Shown: positions 21,243-29,470, counted from the first letter of the stretch. The stretch is 52,425 nucleotides of DNA from Myxococcales bacterium (GCA_023248635.1 JAHFED010000010.1:77275-129699); one strand, 5' to 3'. Numbers and translations are program-made. The notes: generated by a model from the letters alone, not told the origin.

Positions 21243-21334
21243 GTGGGACGACGTCGCTGGCTGCTCGTGCGCCCGCGAGCCAGCCTCGAAGTTTGACCGC
21301 GGACAGACCCGCAACCTATCGTGCCGTCGTCGTC

Positions 21335-22255
21335 ATGGCCTTGCACAAGCCCCCGAAACCACCCCCGCCGCCGCCTCCCCGAGGCGCTGAACCACCTGTG
21401 GCTCCGGGTCCCGCGCGCGCCAGCACGCCCCCCCCCGCGCGCCGCAGTTCCGTCGACGACGCCACCGACCCCTCGCTGCAGCGCGTCTCCAAGGCCCACC
21501 CGCTCGTGGGCACCGACGGCAAGCTGGCCAAGAAGGAGCTCGTTGAGCAGTACACGCCCTTCGTGCGCAGCATCGCCGCCAAGATCAAAAAGGGCCTCGC
21601 CAAGAACATCGAATTCGACGACCTCCTCGCCTACGGCATGACGGGGCTGCTCGAGGCTGCCGAACGCTACGACCCGCGCATGGGCGCCAACTTCATGACC
21701 TTCAGTTATTACCGTGTGCGCGGTGCCATTTATGATGGACTGAGAGGCATGGGTTGGGTCAGTCGTACTGAGTATCAGAAAATCCGCTTTGAAGAGCGTG
21801 CCACCCAATATCTCGAGAACATGGCGTCGCGCGAAGTCGTCGCCGGCGAATCCAACAAATCCGTCGAGGACAACCTGGAGGAGCTCGCCAACCAGGTCAG
21901 CCAGCTCGTCACCATCTACGTCACCTCCCTCGAAGCCATGGAAGACCTGCAGGTCGAAGACAAGGGTCGCCAACCCATCGATGAGCGCTTCGCCGACGTC
22001 GAAATGAAGGCCCATGTCCGCGAGGCGATCACACGGTTGACCGAAGCCGATCGCGAAATTGTGATGCTCTATTACTTCAAGGAAATGAGCCTTCAAGAGG
22101 TGGGCAATCAGCTCGGTCTCAGCAAGAGCTGGACGAGCCGCCGCCATGCCCAGGCCATCGATCGGCTGACGCGCGTGCTGCAGGAGATCCTGAAGGAGAC
22201 CCCGGCCAGCTCCAAGCCCTCGTCGTTGTCGAAGCCGGCACTTCCCAAGCGCTGA
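21335..22255 (+). CDS. RNA polymerase sigma factor, FliA/WhiG family
   Basis: A 306-residue sigma-70 family protein of the sigma-28 type. A Pro-rich N-terminal extension (KPPKPPPPPPPRG) is followed by region 2 (about 68-145: FVRSIAAKIKKGL, DDLLAYGMTGLLEAAERYDP, FMTFSYYRVRGAIYDGLRG). Region 4 (about 225-285) contains LTEADREIVMLYYFKEMSLQ and the helix-turn-helix EVGNQLGLSKSWTSRRHAQA. The ATG at 21335 is preferred over an open frame 14 codons upstream. No flagellar genes or anti-sigma gene are nearby, so its regulon may not be motility. The Pro-rich leader is unusual for the family. Confidence 0.9.
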   Translation: MALHKPPKPPPPPPPRGAEPPVAPGPARASTPPPARRSSVDDATDPSLQRVSKAHPLVGTDGKLAKKELVEQYTPFVRSIAAKIKKGLAKNIEFDDLLAYGMTGLLEAAERYDPRMGANFMTFSYYRVRGAIYDGLRGMGWVSRTEYQKIRFEERATQYLENMASREVVAGESNKSVEDNLEELANQVSQLVTIYVTSLEAMEDLQVEDKGRQPIDERFADVEMKAHVREAITRLTEADREIVMLYYFKEMSLQEVGNQLGLSKSWTSRRHAQAIDRLTRVLQEILKETPASSKPSSLSKPALPKR

Positions 22256-22260
22256 GCGGC

Positions 22261-22992
22261 TCAAAGAAACAGGGCCCCGCGCCAGCGCAGGTCGACCAGG
22301 TCGGCGCGCACCCGGGCCACGTCGACAACGGTGCCTGCCGCGGCGGCCTCGGCGCGGAGCACGCCCAAGCCCGCGCCCAGCGTTTGCCCTTGGCTGAAGC
22401 AGACCAGCAGCTTGGCCACCGCCGGCGAGACGACGTCGACGACGAACTGCTCGGCGCGCTGAAAACACAGGAGCACGACGGGTTGAGCGGCGGCCGCAGG
22501 CAAGGCCGTCGTCGTCGAGGTCACGCGGTGCACGGGGTGCCGATACAGGGCCAGGCGCGCACTGGGATCGAGCAAGAACACAGCGTCGTCGACGACGGCA
22601 CCCGCTGTCTGGTGCCGACCCGTCTCGGACATCGTCACTTCGATCTCCAGGGCTTCGAAGTGGCACAGCTCGCCGAAGGCCCCGCTGCGCGCCGACGACG
22701 GCAAAGTCGCCGGCTCCTGCTGCATCAGCCAGGCGGTGAACTGTGCGGGTACATCGCGCACCAGCCTCGTGGTCGGCGGCGCCTCCGCCAAAAAGCGAGC
22801 AGCGACGTCGTCGAAATCGGCACGGTGCAGCCGTCGGGCGTGGGGACACGCCCGCTCGATGGTGTTCAGCAGGTTCGAGCGCACCAGATCGCGGTAGACG
22901 CGCTGCCGCCTGCGGTCGACGCCAGCAAGCCAAGTGGGTTCCCGCCCCAAGAGCAAGGCGCGCAAGGCCGCTTCGGTGGAAGCCAAGGTCAT
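22261..22992 (-). CDS. DUF2063 protein (HvfC/BufC-type MNIO partner)
   Basis: A 243-residue protein starting MTLASTEAALRALLLG. The N-terminal half (about 1-90) is the helical DUF2063 region (YRDLVRSNLLNTIERACPHARR, then FLAEAPPTTRLVRDVP). The C-terminal half is beta-rich with PSARLALYRHPVHRV. DUF2063 proteins are partners of DUF692 (MNIO) enzymes, in bufferin systems helping precursor recognition. Its ATG overlaps the stop of the DUF692 gene by 4 bases, so the two are translationally coupled. The position directly after DUF692 is the usual order. The C-terminal end abuts the convergent sigma factor gene. Confidence 0.87.
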   Translation of the reverse strand: MTLASTEAALRALLLGREPTWLAGVDRRRQRVYRDLVRSNLLNTIERACPHARRLHRADFDDVAARFLAEAPPTTRLVRDVPAQFTAWLMQQEPATLPSSARSGAFGELCHFEALEIEVTMSETGRHQTAGAVVDDAVFLLDPSARLALYRHPVHRVTSTTTALPAAAAQPVVLLCFQRAEQFVVDVVSPAVAKLLVCFSQGQTLGAGLGVLRAEAAAAGTVVDVARVRADLVDLRWRGALFL

Positions 22993-23909
22993 CGGCGAGG
23001 TTCCCCGGCGCCGGCATCGACGACGGCTTGCAAACGCTGCAGCTCGAGCTCGAGCTCGGCCAAGGGCGGGATGTTGTGGTCTCGCTCCAAAAGCACGGGC
23101 GCCGGCAGCAGTCCTCGACGTCGCATTTCGCCCACGGTGAAGGCCAGCAGCGCAAAGACGGGATCGATGATGGCCGCGCCATGGGTGTCGATGAGCAAGG
23201 TGGGGACGCCGTCGTCGTCGCGCTCCTCCACCAGGTGACCAGCGACGTGCATCTGCACCACCCGCTCGAGGGGCAATGCGCGGATGTAGGCCTGAGGATC
23301 GAAGCCGAAGTTGACGGCGTTGACGTAGACGTTGTTGACGTCGAGCAGCAGCGAGCAGCCGGCCTCGTCGACGACGCTGCTCACAAAGCTCGCCTCGTCG
23401 AGCTCGTCTTGCGGGTGGCGCAGGTAGGCCGAGACGTTTTCGACGGCGATGGGCAGCTCGAGGCGATCTTGCACCTCGCGAATGCGGCGGCTCGCTCGGC
23501 TGATCGCTTCGGCGGTGAAGGGCAAAGGCAGCAGGTCGTGGGTCTCGGCGCCAGCGACGTGGGTCAGGCAGAGGTGGTCGGAGTACCAGCGCGCCCCGTT
23601 TTCGCGCAGGAACACCTTGAGGGCGGCCAGCAGGTCGTCGTCGACGGGGGCAGCGCCGGAGAAGTCGCCGCACAATCCGTGCGAGACCACGGGCCAGCGC
23701 TCGCGGGCCATGGCCAAGAGCCGACCGCGCCGTCCGCCGACGCCGAGGTGGTTTTCGGGTGCGACCTCGATGAAGGAGGCCGCGCTTCCGTCAGCGGCGA
23801 GCAGCTCGTCGGCCAGGGCCGCGCGCAGACCGAGTCCGACCGTGCCGCGCAAAGTGCGGTCCATGGGGCCGACGGATCGGTCGCGCAGGGTCGCTGCTCT
23901 GTGGTTCAT
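22989..23909 (-). CDS. DUF692 multinuclear non-haem iron oxidative enzyme (MNIO; HvfB/BufB-like)
   Basis: A 306-residue TIM-barrel enzyme of the MNIO (DUF692) family, which modifies residues of ribosomally made peptides using a multi-iron centre. All expected metal-ligand blocks are present: EVAPENHLG (Glu 48, Glu 52), SHGLCGDF (His 77), SDHLCLTH (Asp 111, His 112), VENVSAYL (Glu 157), LLLDVNNVYVNA (Asp 190, Asn 193), HVAGH (His 221, His 225), DTHG (Asp 241, His 243) and LLERDHNIP (Glu 275). The ATG at 23909 lies 14 bases after the upstream lipoprotein gene. No DUF2282-type precursor gene is visible; the substrate may be the adjacent lipoprotein or lie elsewhere. Confidence 0.94.
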   Translation of the reverse strand: MNHRAATLRDRSVGPMDRTLRGTVGLGLRAALADELLAADGSAASFIEVAPENHLGVGGRRGRLLAMARERWPVVSHGLCGDFSGAAPVDDDLLAALKVFLRENGARWYSDHLCLTHVAGAETHDLLPLPFTAEAISRASRRIREVQDRLELPIAVENVSAYLRHPQDELDEASFVSSVVDEAGCSLLLDVNNVYVNAVNFGFDPQAYIRALPLERVVQMHVAGHLVEERDDDGVPTLLIDTHGAAIIDPVFALLAFTVGEMRRRGLLPAPVLLERDHNIPPLAELELELQRLQAVVDAGAGEPRR

Positions 23910-23923
23910 CGAACCTCTCGCCG

Positions 23924-24343
23924 TCACTGCAACAGCTGATCGGGATCCACCGACGTCACGCCTGGCACGGCGCGCACCGATGCCACCCCGGCCGGCGGCA
24001 GCTCGATGGTGGCCTGGTTGGACATCCACCAGCGCTCCACCACGCGGCCGCCGACGGCACCCAGGGCTGCGTCGAGTCCCGCCTGCCCGTTGGCGGTCTC
24101 TCGACGCTTGCTCTCGATGTAGCCCCCCAGGCCGCCGGGGTTGTCGTGGGCGAGGTTGCGGTATTCCTGCAGGTCGGGCCCGGCCTTTTCGAAGCTGACG
24201 ACGTAACGAGCCCGCCCCTCGCTGCCCATGACCCCCGTGCGCTGCAGGCCCGCCAGGCCGTCGTCTGGGCACCCGCCGCACAGCACAGCGAAAAGCACGC
24301 CGAAAACGGCGGCCGTTCCCGGGCGCAGACGCAAAGCATGCAT
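23924..24343 (-). CDS. Small lipoprotein with inhibitor-I9-like domain
   Basis: A 139-residue protein with a signal peptide and a slightly atypical lipobox (AVLCGGC, Cys 25). The mature part (about 45-139) follows the inhibitor I9/subtilisin propeptide pattern: ARYVVSFEKAG, then a helical insert, GGRVVERWWMSNQATIELPP, and an ending in VRAVPGVTSVDPDQ. I9 domains are chaperones and inhibitors of serine peptidases. Here no subtilase is adjacent; the upstream gene encodes an HExxH protein. The DUF692 gene starts 14 bases downstream, so this is also a candidate MNIO substrate, although its only Cys residues (22 and 25) are in the lipobox region. The fold is inferred from pattern. Confidence 0.75.
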   Translation of the reverse strand: MHALRLRPGTAAVFGVLFAVLCGGCPDDGLAGLQRTGVMGSEGRARYVVSFEKAGPDLQEYRNLAHDNPGGLGGYIESKRRETANGQAGLDAALGAVGGRVVERWWMSNQATIELPPAGVASVRAVPGVTSVDPDQLLQ

Positions 24344-24407
24344 TCGCTTCAAGAAAAGCACGTTCCCACCGGAACGGTCCACTGTTCTCCGTGGTGGGGC
24401 CGACCGA

Positions 24408-25775
24408 TCACGGCGCCTTGGCAACGATGACCCGGCGCAGGCGTGCCAGGGGAGCCGTGGCTGACGCCGGCACGATGCCCAGATCCCGCAGCAGTGGCTC
24501 GACGAGGGGAAAGGGGCGGGTGAGGGCTTCGTCGACGTCGTATTGAAGATGCGCGCAGCCTGGAGCCGCCGCCGCCGCTCGCGCCACGAACGCACGCGCG
24601 GGAATGCGGCGCACATCGACGCGCAGCTGCTCGGCGCGGAAGGAGGCGACAACGTCGTCGACGGCGATCCCGGCGCATTGCCGCAGCCCCACATCGAGCA
24701 GCAGCACCACCGCCGCCCCCCCCCAATACACTTGCAGGTAGCGCCCCTCGGCGCGCATGTGCCTGCTCGCGTCAGCGAGGGATTGGGTGAGGGGACCCCG
24801 CGCCGCCGCCTCCTCACCCCTGTCGAATCCGTCGCGCAGCTGGTCCCAGGCCTCGGATTCGCTCAACAGGCCCGCGCGGGCCCGCAGAACGTTCTGGTGG
24901 TAGCTGGCCAACCCCTCGCCCAACCAAGCGTCGTCGACGCCTACGGGTGGCATCAGCAGGTGGGAAAGCTCGTGCACCGCCACCCAGTCGTCGACGACGT
25001 CGTCGACGCGGGCTTGGGCGCCGAGCAGCAAGAGGGCTTGGGGCCCACCGCCACGCTCCACCATCCCAAAGGGCACGCCGCTGCCCCACACGGGATCGAC
25101 GACGACGACGACCTTGGGGAAGGGGAAGCGTCCGCGGTTTCCCGCGGCCACCGCCGTCGCCGCCGCGCTCAGCCAGCGATCGACCTCGCTGCGCACCATC
25201 TGCAGCTCCCCCGGGAGCATCACCACCTGCAACGTAGCAGCGTCGACGGGGAGCTCGCGCATCGACACGTTGCCAAACACCGCCGCCGACGCGAAGGCCC
25301 AAGTCGAGGCATCGACGTCGTAGCTGTCCCCGTGCTTGGGAAAGGGGAGCGCCGCGTTGAAGCCGGGGGGCAGGCTCAGCGTGAGGGTGCCCGACCGCTT
25401 TGGCATGGGACGCCACAGCCACACATCGGGAGAGGAGACGACGACGTCGGGGGCCACGCGGGTGGCACTGTCACGGTCCTGCCAGGTGTCGGCGGCGCGG
25501 CCGAGATCGAGCACGATCTCCTGGCAACCGTCGACGACCCGCGCGGACACGAGGAAGTCCCGCGCCCGCCGTTGTTCGGGACCCACCGCCAGCGCGGGGC
25601 AAACGGTCTCGGAAACGACGAAGGCGGCGTCGACGTCGACGTGCCAGGTCAGTGGGCCTGCGGGTGGGGCGCTGTCGCTCGGGGTGTTTGTTTCCGGTGC
25701 CGGGACGGCGCTCGCGCAGGCCTGGGCGGCGACGACCAGCAGAACCAACGCCCCCTTTGCGTGCCGGGCTGCCAA
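24408..25775 (-). CDS. HExxH metallopeptidase-like lipoprotein (gluzincin type)
   Basis: About 455 residues. The N-terminus (AARHAKGALVLLVVAAQACAS) is a lipoprotein signal with Cys 20. The catalytic region carries HELSH (268-272) and WLGEGLASYHQ (Glu 287), the zinc ligands of gluzincins of the peptidase MA clan. The preceding domain (45-250) is beta-rich with two Cys. The start is uncertain: a TTG at 25775 with AGGGGG 4 bases upstream opens the signal peptide, and no ATG or GTG fits better. The small I9-like lipoprotein follows 64 bases downstream. The protein probably acts on the periplasmic side of a membrane. The substrate is unknown. Confidence 0.75.
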   Translation of the reverse strand: MAARHAKGALVLLVVAAQACASAVPAPETNTPSDSAPPAGPLTWHVDVDAAFVVSETVCPALAVGPEQRRARDFLVSARVVDGCQEIVLDLGRAADTWQDRDSATRVAPDVVVSSPDVWLWRPMPKRSGTLTLSLPPGFNAALPFPKHGDSYDVDASTWAFASAAVFGNVSMRELPVDAATLQVVMLPGELQMVRSEVDRWLSAAATAVAAGNRGRFPFPKVVVVVDPVWGSGVPFGMVERGGGPQALLLLGAQARVDDVVDDWVAVHELSHLLMPPVGVDDAWLGEGLASYHQNVLRARAGLLSESEAWDQLRDGFDRGEEAAARGPLTQSLADASRHMRAEGRYLQVYWGGAAVVLLLDVGLRQCAGIAVDDVVASFRAEQLRVDVRRIPARAFVARAAAAAPGCAHLQYDVDEALTRPFPLVEPLLRDLGIVPASATAPLARLRRVIVAKAP

Positions 25776-25980
25776 CGCTTCCCCCTGACGTCCTCTAGCT
25801 AGTCGCCCCGCTGGGCCTCGTCGATCCGTCGTGCGGGGCGATTTCGCGGGGCGCTGCCTCAGCGAGAACCGAGCCCAGCGACCGAAGAATCCGGGCGGCG
25901 TCGACTCTCGCGGAACACTGGCTTTCCCTGCGCGCGCCTGGCCTGCTATGCGGCCGTCGTCTCGATCGCGGAGCGGAAGA

Positions 25981-26832
25981 ATGCGTCTTGTGGCCTCAGC
26001 TGTTGCCGTGCTCTTTGTTGCAGCCCCTGCCTTTGCGCAGGACGAGCCGGCCACCAGCGAGGCCGGAGGCCACAAAGCCGAAGTCGCCGCCGACGACGAC
26101 GCCGAGTTCCAGCGCGTCGACGAGCGGGCACCGCGCGCCGGAACGCCCCTGATTTCCAACAAGCTCTACCCGATGCAGTACCGCTTCGAATTCACGGGCT
26201 TCTTCGATATTTCCTACGCGGACAAATACGTCGACCACATCGGCGGCCACGCTGGCATCGGCTTTCACCTCTTTGACTGGTTGGCCTTCGAAGCCTTCGG
26301 CGGCTACCTCAGCGGCGACGAGACCGGCATCGTCGAAAATGTGCGCCTCGACGGAAAATCGGCTGGCCTGGCGTCGAGCAACGCCGACTGCGCCAATCCC
26401 GGTTGCGAGCCGCAGCTCCCAGACATGTTCCAAACCACGTGGTTCGCCGGCGGCAACGTTCAGTGGTCTCCCATCTACGGCAAGCTCTCCGCCGTTTCGG
26501 AATACGACCTCAACTTCCAGTTCTACGGCAAGCTGGGCGGCGGCGCCGAGGGCATCCAACGCCTCGAAAACACCGGCGGCTTCAGTGCTCCCGGTGTTCG
26601 TCCCTCGTTCAACTATGGACTGGGTGTGCGCCTCATCCCCTGGAAATATGTCGCCGTCCGGGCCGAGCTCACCAACTACGTCGGCATCAATCCCAATGTC
26701 GAAGAGCATGACGCCACCGACGAGGGCAACTGCAAGGACGGCTACATCCTCGGCCAGGGAAACCAGGAAAGCTGCCTCACCGATTTCTCTCAGAATTCCA
26801 TGTTCCAAATTGGTGTGAGCTTCCTGCTCTGA
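25981..26832 (+). CDS. Outer-membrane beta-barrel protein, myxobacterial OMP family (GltA/GltB-like)
   Basis: A 283-residue exported protein with a clear signal peptide (MRLVASAVAVLFVAAPAFAQ). An acidic region is followed by a beta barrel with alternating hydrophobic residues. It shares the block GNVQWSPIYGK with its neighbour (GNLQWSPLYGK) and ends in FQIGVSFLL, a beta-barrel assembly signal. This fits the myxobacterial outer-membrane beta-barrel family that includes GltA and GltB of the Myxococcus xanthus gliding machinery. A loop carries two Cys (CANPGC) and another pair near the C-terminus. The ATG at 25981 has GGAAG close upstream. It is first in a three-gene plus-strand unit. Confidence 0.82.
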   Translation: MRLVASAVAVLFVAAPAFAQDEPATSEAGGHKAEVAADDDAEFQRVDERAPRAGTPLISNKLYPMQYRFEFTGFFDISYADKYVDHIGGHAGIGFHLFDWLAFEAFGGYLSGDETGIVENVRLDGKSAGLASSNADCANPGCEPQLPDMFQTTWFAGGNVQWSPIYGKLSAVSEYDLNFQFYGKLGGGAEGIQRLENTGGFSAPGVRPSFNYGLGVRLIPWKYVAVRAELTNYVGINPNVEEHDATDEGNCKDGYILGQGNQESCLTDFSQNSMFQIGVSFLL

Positions 26833-26897
26833 ATCCACAAAGAGAACACCAATCCAACGTCGATGACTCAGTGCTGATCTTTACGGGCCGATGACGA

Positions 26898-26921
26898 CTT
26901 CAAGACGCCAGCATCTGGAAC
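26898..26921. repeat. Degenerate copy of CAAGACGC repeat
   Basis: The stretch CTTCAAGACGCCAGCATCTG and its right flank match the core seen at 18274-18306, 33242-33258 and 40167-40183. It lies in the 133-base spacer between the two barrel genes. A 13-base match (CAAGACGCCAGCA) also occurs at 39438-39450 between two other genes. The copy is too diverged to form a perfect hairpin. Confidence 0.5.
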
Positions 26922-26965
26922 ATCCAAACTTCAATGCCCACTTGCAGGGCCACAGTGCTCTCACC

Positions 26966-27880
26966 ATGAGTGTCTCCATGACCAGCCTCCCTTTCGGACT
27001 TCGAGCACTTCTCTGCGCCCTGCCCCTGGTCGGTGCAGCACCCCTGCTCGCTGAGGGCGACGAGAAGCCGGCCGCCACCGAAGACGCCGCCGACGCTGAC
27101 GCCGCTGAAGCTGAAGCAACTGAGCCTCCAACACCCGCCGCAGGGGATCCGAGCGACGTCGGGGCCGGTGAAAAGCCGGTGCTCGAAGAGACGATTTACG
27201 TGGTGCAGGGCAAGCCCTTCCTCGCCCAGGGACACTTCGAGCTGACGCCGCAGATCGCCCAGAGCGTGAACGACTCCTTCACCTCGCACACTGGCGTTTT
27301 GATCTCCGGCCTCTACCACCTGAAGGAAAACGTCGCCCTCGAAGCCACCCTCGGCGTCTTCGGCTGGTGGGACGAGCCCGGCGTCACGAGCCCTCGACTG
27401 GGCGGACGCGACACCGACCTGACCATCGAGCTGAAGCAAAAAGAGAACCTGGCTCCCGAGCGAGTAAAGCTATACCAATTTCCCTATGTCGCCGCCGGCA
27501 ACCTGCAGTGGAGCCCGCTGTATGGCAAGGTGAACGTACAAGAAGTCGTCCTCGGCCAGTTCAATCTCTACCTCTCCGTCGGCGCCGGCGTGATGGGACT
27601 GCAGCTCGAGACCCTCACCCCCGGCATCCCCGACAAGAAGTTCGTGGCGCTCAAGGGCCCGGCTGGCGTGCTGCCCCCGATGGCGTTGACGACGTCGTTC
27701 GGCGGCGGCTTGCGCTTTTATTTCACGGAGTGGCTCGGCGTGCGCGTCGAGGTCCGCGACTACGTCACGCCGCTTTCGGTGTTTCAGAGCGGCGAAAACG
27801 CCGTCGACGATGCCGACGCCCCGAGCTTCGACGTGACCAACACTGTGCTCGCCCAACTGGGCGTCTCGTTCGTGTTCTGA
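26966..27880 (+). CDS. Second outer-membrane beta-barrel protein of the myxobacterial OMP family
   Basis: A 304-residue paralogue of the preceding gene. It has a signal peptide (SLPFGLRALLCALPLVGAAP), a Glu/Ala-rich acidic linker (about 35-75), then a barrel with GNLQWSPLYGKVNVQEVVLG and FGGGLRFYFTEWLGVRVEVR, ending in AQLGVSFVF. ATGs at 26966 and 26978 are both possible. The pair of paralogous barrels followed by a periplasmic TPR-like protein is the gltA/gltB/gltC arrangement of gliding myxobacteria. It is also found in non-gliding relatives, so motility is not proved. Only 12 bases separate it from the next gene. Confidence 0.82.
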   Translation: MSVSMTSLPFGLRALLCALPLVGAAPLLAEGDEKPAATEDAADADAAEAEATEPPTPAAGDPSDVGAGEKPVLEETIYVVQGKPFLAQGHFELTPQIAQSVNDSFTSHTGVLISGLYHLKENVALEATLGVFGWWDEPGVTSPRLGGRDTDLTIELKQKENLAPERVKLYQFPYVAAGNLQWSPLYGKVNVQEVVLGQFNLYLSVGAGVMGLQLETLTPGIPDKKFVALKGPAGVLPPMALTTSFGGGLRFYFTEWLGVRVEVRDYVTPLSVFQSGENAVDDADAPSFDVTNTVLAQLGVSFVF

Positions 27881-27892
27881 GTGGAAGAACCA

Positions 27893-29470
27893 ATGAAGAA
27901 GCTCCTCGTTGCTGCCGCTGTTCTCTCCACTCTCTTGTCTGGCGCTGCCTCGGCGCAGAACCTCGACAAGGCCATCGACGCCTTCAAGGCCGGCGACCAC
28001 GAAAGTGCTGCCGCTGGCTTTTATTCCGTGCTGCGCCTCTCCGAAGACGCCGGCGAGGTCGTCGAAGCCCAATATGGCCTCGCCCGCAGCTTCGAGAAGC
28101 TCGGCTTGAATCTCGCGGCGCTCAAATACTGGAGCGACATCGCCGAGGCCGGCAACGAGCACCCGCACTTCGAGAAGGCCATCGAAGGCCTCGTCAACGT
28201 CGGCGAAGCGCTGCAAGACGACCTCAATATGCCCAAGATCTTAGATAAGGTCTACAACGGGCCCAACATCTCCACGATTGAAAAGATGAACCCCGAAGTA
28301 GTGCAACGGGTGTACTTCCATCTCGGGCGCTACGTCTACAATCGCCAGAACTTCAAAGAAGCTCGCAAGATGTTCAAGGCCGTCAAGGAGGGCAACCCGG
28401 CCTACCCCGGCGCCCAATACATGCTCGGCCTGCTGCGCCTGGGCGTCGGCCAGCCCGACCGTCCGCCGCCCAAGTTCAAGGAGGCCACCGAGCACTTCGA
28501 GAACTGCAGAAACGCCATCCCCAAGGACACCAAGAACCCCAAGCTCGTTGAACTCCGCGACCTTGCCAGCCTCGGATTGGCCCGCCTGGACTACGAGCAG
28601 GCCTACGAGCTCGAAGACGGCGACCCCAAGCGCGACGCCGGCCTGCGCGCCTCGATGCTGGAATTCCAGAAGGTCCCGCGCTTCTCCGATGCCTGGTCCG
28701 AGGCTCTGTTCGAGCGCGCCTGGGCCCACACAGTCAAGAACGATTATGGCCGCGCGCTGGGCGCCCTGCATTCTTTGTCGGCGCCATACTTTCAGGATCA
28801 GTTCTATCCTGAAGCCAAGATCCTGCAGGCAATCATTTACTACTACAATTGCCAATGGGATCGGGTGAACACCATCCTCGACGAGACCAAGTCGAGCTAC
28901 GAGCCCATGGCCGACCGGATGACCAAGCTCGCCGAGAGCAACCTCGAGTACGACGAGTGGTACCCGCTGCTGCAAAAATCGATGGAGCAAAAAGAAGGAG
29001 CCGAAGACGACGCCCTCCTGCCCCGTCGGGTCGCCGCCGCCATCGCTCACGACCCCAAGTTCATGAAGATGGAAGCCTTCCTGAAAGAGATTGATCGCGA
29101 GCGCAAGGTCTTCGAGAAGAACCGTACTTTTGCGAAGTCCGACATGGGCAGCACCCTCGTCGAAGATTTCGACGCCAACGCCGAAGGATACCTGGGCGTC
29201 ATGGGCAAGTTCCTCAAGACCAAGGTCATCTCCGTCGCCGCCGACCTCTCCGACATCTCGACCCGCGCGTCGCTGATCGCCCTGGAGACAAAGACCGCCG
29301 AAGCTGACTGGTTGGAACAAGGCCGCGACATCAACAATCTGGCACGCGCGCGCTTGCCGCGTCCCTTCATCCCAGATGACACCTTTCAGTTCTGGTGGTT
29401 CCGAAACGAGTACTGGATTGATGAGCTCGGCTACTACGAGTTCACCATCAAGACCGAGTGCTTCGAGTAG
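27893..29470 (+). CDS. Periplasmic TPR-like protein (GltC-like)
   Basis: A 525-residue exported protein with a signal peptide (MKKLLVAAAVLSTLLSGAASA) followed by tetratricopeptide-like helices. Examples are LDKAIDAFKAGDHESAAAGF, VVEAQYGLARSFEKLGLNLA and YVYNRQNFKEARKMFKAVKE. It likely resides in the periplasm and docks on the two upstream beta barrels, as GltC is reported to do with GltA and GltB. The start ATG is 27893; a GTG 12 bases upstream is in frame. It is the last gene of the trio; palindromic repeats follow at 29543. Without alignment the orthology to GltC is inference from position, length and repeat type. Confidence 0.75.
   Translation: MKKLLVAAAVLSTLLSGAASAQNLDKAIDAFKAGDHESAAAGFYSVLRLSEDAGEVVEAQYGLARSFEKLGLNLAALKYWSDIAEAGNEHPHFEKAIEGLVNVGEALQDDLNMPKILDKVYNGPNISTIEKMNPEVVQRVYFHLGRYVYNRQNFKEARKMFKAVKEGNPAYPGAQYMLGLLRLGVGQPDRPPPKFKEATEHFENCRNAIPKDTKNPKLVELRDLASLGLARLDYEQAYELEDGDPKRDAGLRASMLEFQKVPRFSDAWSEALFERAWAHTVKNDYGRALGALHSLSAPYFQDQFYPEAKILQAIIYYYNCQWDRVNTILDETKSSYEPMADRMTKLAESNLEYDEWYPLLQKSMEQKEGAEDDALLPRRVAAAIAHDPKFMKMEAFLKEIDRERKVFEKNRTFAKSDMGSTLVEDFDANAEGYLGVMGKFLKTKVISVAADLSDISTRASLIALETKTAEADWLEQGRDINNLARARLPRPFIPDDTFQFWWFRNEYWIDELGYYEFTIKTECFE

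Follow-up and report, generated by a model that had tools for sequence, protein, structure and literature searches.

The window considered here, a stretch of 52,425 nucleotides from a Myxococcales bacterium (GCA_023248635.1 JAHFED010000010.1:77275-129699), carries a four-gene unit encoding, in order of transcription, an HExxH metallopeptidase-like protein, a small protein resembling inhibitor family I9, an MNIO enzyme (DUF692) and a DUF2063 protein. This unit is probably a rearranged HvfBC maturation locus of the captophorin/oxazolin type, the substrates of which, lipoproteins with EGSCG motifs, are encoded in trans. The I9 protein, which occupies the slot of a precursor gene, would then not be a substrate, and the M61-like HExxH protein would be an ordinary neighbour of such enzymes. 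The genome of the window (G000) is a 6.5 Mb draft in 135 contigs, 96.7% complete. The genomes compared with it are mostly drafts, some fragmented, and signal and lipobox calls were made by eye.

The MNIO (P0002) matches PF05114 with 291 bits (cut-off 25). Its nearest NCBIfam models are HvfB (equivalog NF003818, 290.7 bits, under the cut-off of 360) and BufB (254.7 bits, also under cut-off), and by sequence it is of HvfB type, not a strict HvfB equivalog. The putative metal-site residues His77, Asp111, Glu157, Asn158, Asp190, Asn192, His221, His225, Asp241, His243 and Glu275 are as in nearly all HvfB-type relatives. The DUF2063 protein matches PF09836 with 45.8 bits (cut-off 27.2), its C-terminal domain model remaining sub-threshold (17.9 vs 27), and the nearest NCBIfam model is HvfC (90.7 bits vs a cut-off of 142). 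Between G000 and G002, a second species of the genus, the ratio of nonsynonymous to synonymous substitution rates (dN/dS) is about 0.28/0.85 for the MNIO (about 0.3) and 0.40/1.10 for the partner, which indicates purifying selection on both, despite the lack of an adjacent precursor. Judged on these family matches, the two proteins form an intact HvfB/HvfC-type pair.

P0002 is the only HvfB-type MNIO found in G000. The other DUF692 protein of this genome (L002, G000:C75:25281-25958) was considered as an alternative modifier and rejected, as it lies on a distant branch, with L062, L063 and L066, where several residues conserved in the HvfB type are missing; in G000, it is followed by a 269-residue protein without family match. 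Correlating the MNIO residue after ERD with the precursor motif gave no clean rule. Elsewhere in the genus, another MNIO is directly preceded by a large protein (L045, G002:C216; L044, G001:C717) with EGEGEG repeats, EF-hand-like and CRGxNxC Cys motifs and a CxxCH site, which is possibly a very long MNIO substrate.

In most of 37 MNIO relatives fetched from the genome collection, the gene immediately upstream, in the same orientation, encodes a small Cys-rich protein that is exported and often has EGSCG or EGKCG repeats. An I9-like protein takes this place in L009 only, the relative from G002. In the tree, P0002 and L009 pair (support 92/42) within a clade (100/98) whose other members, L007, L008, L010, L011 and L052, are each preceded by an EG(S/K/D)CG lipoprotein. 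This nesting among enzymes with Cys-rich precursors makes the I9 placement a derived one, which, from the sequences compared, probably arose once.

The precursors of G000 were located by profile search. A first profile, built from nine sequences of other genomes, none of the window's genus, and run on five genomes, matched one protein on contig C24 of G000 (E 6.6e-5) and one on contig C11 (E 0.0046), besides two in G001 and the precursor already known from G005. With a wider profile (A4), the values become 3.6e-20 for C24 and 1.3e-9 for C11, although A4 includes both sequences, and a protein of G002 is added (contig C186, end EGSCGGAPKN). Within the genus, G000 and G001 hold two precursors each and G002 one. 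The C24 and C11 proteins appear to be small and secreted, with EGSCGG repeats at the C-terminus (C-terminal ends, C24 and C11: ...EGSCGGEKKAGEGSCGGAPKN; ...EASCGGGKKGEEGSCGGDKK...KEGSCGEGSCGGRR). The NCBIfam HvfA-repeat model is the top match for C11 and the second for C24, both scores being under the cut-off because the model expects KCG. Both genes stand on contigs other than that of the window, with no MNIO alongside in the stretches examined. The DNA around the C24 precursor aligns with G001, and with G002 over the precursor and about 300 further bases. In both G000 (L118, contig C24) and G001 (L122, contig C1109), this orphan precursor is found near a VWA-domain gene and a polyketide-cyclase/START-like gene.

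A remote precursor was one of the options left by the original prediction, and it is this option that the C24 and C11 lipoproteins bear out. The simplest reading of these sequences would be that the MNIO and its partner act on both in trans. For bufferins, adjacency is not obligatory, a sizeable share of their precursors being encoded away from MNIO genes (PMC12452194); those bufferins are of the DUF2282 or 6/12-Cys kind, unlike the EGSCG type found here. No DUF2282 precursor stands in the precursor slot, the genome not having been searched for PF10048.

In the proposed pathway, the cytoplasmic MNIO and its DUF2063 partner would oxidise the EGSCG cysteines of the C24 and C11 precursors before export, most likely to 5-thiooxazole. 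The modified lipoproteins would then be exported and probably lipidated, and the exported M61-like protease would probably trim or release them. The I9 protein may be a passenger, or it may protect some target from subtilases. Such a system would resemble the oxazolin/captophorin systems HvfABC and FonABC, which combine an HvfB/BufB-type MNIO and a DUF2063 partner with an exported EGxCG-repeat precursor (PMC13097082, PMC13419390). It differs from them in that its precursors lie on other contigs and carry EGSCG, not EGKCG, that an I9 gene fills the slot, and that an M61-like protease is attached. An apparent lipoprotein signal together with EGxCG repeats is also seen in NedA, an EGKCG precursor that undergoes lipidation and a modification of 4 Da at each motif; it was produced alongside its cognate NedB and NedC, whereas the precursor genes of the present system are elsewhere in the genome (PMC12636315).

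The small protein in the slot has no Pfam match of its own, and the Pfam I9 model does not recognise it, giving a match in only one of the four members, at E 0.29. Its AlphaFold model is confident over the domain, and the top 22 Foldseek matches are subtilisin propeptide or pro-subtilase entries, with POIA1 lower down; on this predicted structure, it has a true I9 fold. Of 195 genomes searched in the phylum, 4 contain it (G000, G002, G003 and G005), the sole extra match of the four-member profile being the propeptide of a subtilase in G096; no relatives were found in 26 further genomes, in a search without positive control. It is akin to POIA1 and Tk-propeptide in fold, and differs from them as a stand-alone, signal-bearing protein with an extra helix. 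The four members share an invariant Cys after the hydrophobic start, a VVERWWM core and a C-terminal PD..LQ/E region. The gene is adjacent to the MNIO in G000 and G002 only. It neighbours an HExxH gene in G000 and G005 only, the latter genome having a cupin gene as well, and in G003 and G005 it lies beside phosphatidylserine-decarboxylase-like and UvrD-like genes (both named by eye), G003 having no HExxH gene there. Profile searches detected neither an HvfB-type MNIO nor an EGSCG precursor in G003, which belongs to the same family but to the sister genus.

This distribution bears on the proposal that the I9-like lipoprotein is itself the MNIO substrate, modified on a non-Cys residue such as the C-terminal Asp. 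Its position 14 bases upstream of the MNIO, retained in the second species of the genus, and its conserved C-terminal region fit this idea. Nevertheless, the same residues are kept in G003 and also in G005, whose I9 gene is distant from every MNIO, so that the protein is not tied to the MNIO and its conservation is independent of the enzyme. Moreover, Cys-rich precursors exist in trans, and P0002 falls within the Cys-precursor clade and far from the ApyH model (79 bits vs a cut-off of 400). The co-occurrence that would make the four genes a fixed unit, as first suggested, also fails, and both this failure and the remote Cys-rich precursors are outcomes that the original prediction had named against itself. 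A role of I9 as the substrate must be regarded as highly improbable. More generally, a gene in the precursor slot can mislead, and MNIO substrates may be encoded far away. The I9 protein most likely either inhibits subtilisin-like proteases after export, as its fold suggests, or is a hitch-hiker.

The HExxH protein matches Pfam Peptidase_M61 with 25.7 bits (cut-off 22.0). Its H268, E269, H272 and E287 are invariant in 33 relatives, of which 28 carry the Pfam M61 match. The best match of its model (pLDDT 91, the AlphaFold confidence score), by fold in Foldseek (E 2.9e-17) as by sequence profile, is 7xyo, an M61 member from Myxococcus fulvus that is about 17% identical in the structure alignment and is presumably the MfuP protein. 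Profile and predicted fold together identify the HExxH protein as an M61-like gluzincin. The strand before HExxH reads FGxVxRGGG, with no conserved Glu; a Glu on that strand is the motif of M1/M61 aminopeptidases, and a strand without it would suit an endopeptidase. A second M61-like HExxH protein of G000 (L120, contig C90) groups with the single copies of G001, G002 and G003.

The 195 genomes of the phylum yielded 78 M61-like matches, and at least 62 of these have an MNIO match on their own strand no more than about 1.5 kb away (the M61-like gene being upstream in at least 58 and downstream in at least 4). In genomes of 5-13 Mb, this is far more than chance would give. Twelve of the close loci were opened. 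Eight have the order M61, Cys-rich (EGSCG-type) lipoprotein, MNIO, which is that of the window with a precursor where the I9 gene sits; three have a Cys-rich protein, the MNIO and then M61, and no precursor was recognised in the last (L254). In addition, the M61 gene is divergent from the MNIO in five Polyangia-type loci (L014, L015, L022, L024 and L031). The M61-like protease is a usual companion of MNIO enzymes in myxobacteria. The peptidase could instead be an unrelated protease that has kept an inherited synteny with MNIO genes, as most of the close pairs come from one family, the Myxococcaceae, and copies without a nearby MNIO exist (in G003, in G005 and as the second G000 copy). However, the two genes stay close in three or more layouts, with M61 on the MNIO strand and upstream, on the MNIO strand and downstream (L025, G071, G108, G111 and G148), or divergent, and this explanation is rather unlikely.

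The original prediction had also drawn from the peptidase and the inhibitor-type domain either export processing or a peptidase-inhibitor pair under modification. The former gains strength for the HExxH gene alone, by virtue of its being a very common MNIO neighbour in the phylum. The latter is not supported, as the targets of I9 domains are subtilases rather than gluzincins, and the two proteins have no evident modifiable residue in common. A looser partnership in one maturation pathway, in which the I9 protein would, for example, keep subtilisin-like proteases away from the exported peptide or from the M61-like protease, would suit the adjacency of HExxH and I9 genes in G000 and, with the cupin gene between them, in G005, as well as that of I9 and MNIO genes in G000 and G002. 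It is nonetheless quite unlikely: the I9 and HExxH genes are on different contigs in G003, there is no HExxH remnant in the short stretch between the I9 gene and the contig end in G002, and almost every genome with an M61-MNIO pair lacks I9.

What the protease would do in the HvfBC-type pathway can be proposed only tentatively, and with somewhat less than even confidence: it may cleave or shed MNIO-modified, lipidated EGxCG peptides, putatively copper-binding, after export, so that the mature product would be a released fragment, not the whole lipoprotein. In the open literature searched, no paper names both MNIO and M61, and the MNIO landscape paper uses "protease" once, in a general sentence on clusters for ribosomally synthesized and post-translationally modified peptides (RiPPs). 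A precedent is MfuP, encoded in a lanthipeptide cluster of Myxococcus fulvus and described in a review as an M61 protease that cleaves the core peptide in its modified form (PMC10885120). Both are M61-type gluzincins in myxobacterial RiPP loci; they differ in RiPP class, in sequence (the low identity to 7xyo given above) and in that the window protein is apparently secreted or lipidated. A captophorin paper of 2026 leaves undecided whether the EGKCG product, once mature, is the entire modified polypeptide or undergoes proteolysis (PMC13097082). As myxobacteria retain a protease gene next to the precursor and the MNIO in several different gene orders, this question becomes directly testable, as does the idea of a maturation protease for lipidated thiooxazole peptides.

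Several observations weigh against a rearranged HvfBC-type locus acting in trans. The residue before Cys is Ser in the precursors but Lys in the characterised HvfA and FonA; FonBC accepts Ala, Arg and Thr at this position and needs a small residue after the Cys, and Ser is not among the residues reported in the sections consulted of that study (PMC13097082). The G002 precursor has a single repeat, and a one-repeat peptide was left unmodified by FonBC (PMC13097082). The dominance of one family in the M61-MNIO linkage means that many of the pairs are not independent. The M61-like protein of the window is closest not to the MNIO-linked copies but to the I9-linked copy of G005 (81/57, weak), which is not near an MNIO, and its neighbourhood with the MNIO may thus be a recent re-joining. 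Finally, two species of the genus have kept I9 and MNIO adjacent, as would not be required of a pure passenger. The end of contig G002:C11 hides what precedes the I9 gene there.

The layout of the unit was as first described, with all genes on the minus strand, intergenic distances of 64 and then 14 bases, and the MNIO stop and DUF2063 start overlapping by 4 bases (ATGA), and the I9-like protein indeed has Cys at 22 and 25 only. The view that no Cys-rich precursor is visible in the unit also held: a six-frame motif scan and a DNA pattern found no open reading frame with two or more EGxCG-like motifs in the whole window, on which the idea of a hidden small Cys-rich one was rejected, and the gaps are too small to leave room for one between the genes. 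The hairpin listed below, which the original prediction did not mention, is not strong, five sites of its type being observed and 2.6 expected. A defence-system reading was discarded, as there was no PADLOC match.

Features of the four-gene unit, with positions counted from the first letter of the window (RRE, RiPP recognition element)
Feature	Position	Strand	Description
DUF2063 protein (P0001)	22261-22992	-	HvfC/PME1-type partner; DUF2063 and degenerate RRE-like C-terminus
MNIO (P0002)	22989-23909	-	HvfB/BufB-type, PF05114; putative metal-site residues intact
I9-fold small protein	23924-24343	-	Subtilisin-propeptide-like; signal sequence; invariant Cys25; in the precursor slot of relatives
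Terminator-like hairpin with T-rich tail	24361-24376	-	In the M61-like/I9 gap; weak
M61-like gluzincin (HExxH protein)	24408-25775	-	TTG start; HELSH 268-272 and Glu287; N-terminal signal, possible lipobox Cys20

On either side of the unit, the genes lie on the plus strand. Divergent from the M61-like gene, positions 25831-29470 encode two proteins that resemble outer-membrane beta-barrels on weak Pfam matches, along with a tetratricopeptide repeat protein. At the other end, an RNA polymerase sigma factor gene (21293-22255), FliA/WhiG-like by eye, is convergent with the unit, and the same sigma factor gene adjoins the MNIO locus in G002.

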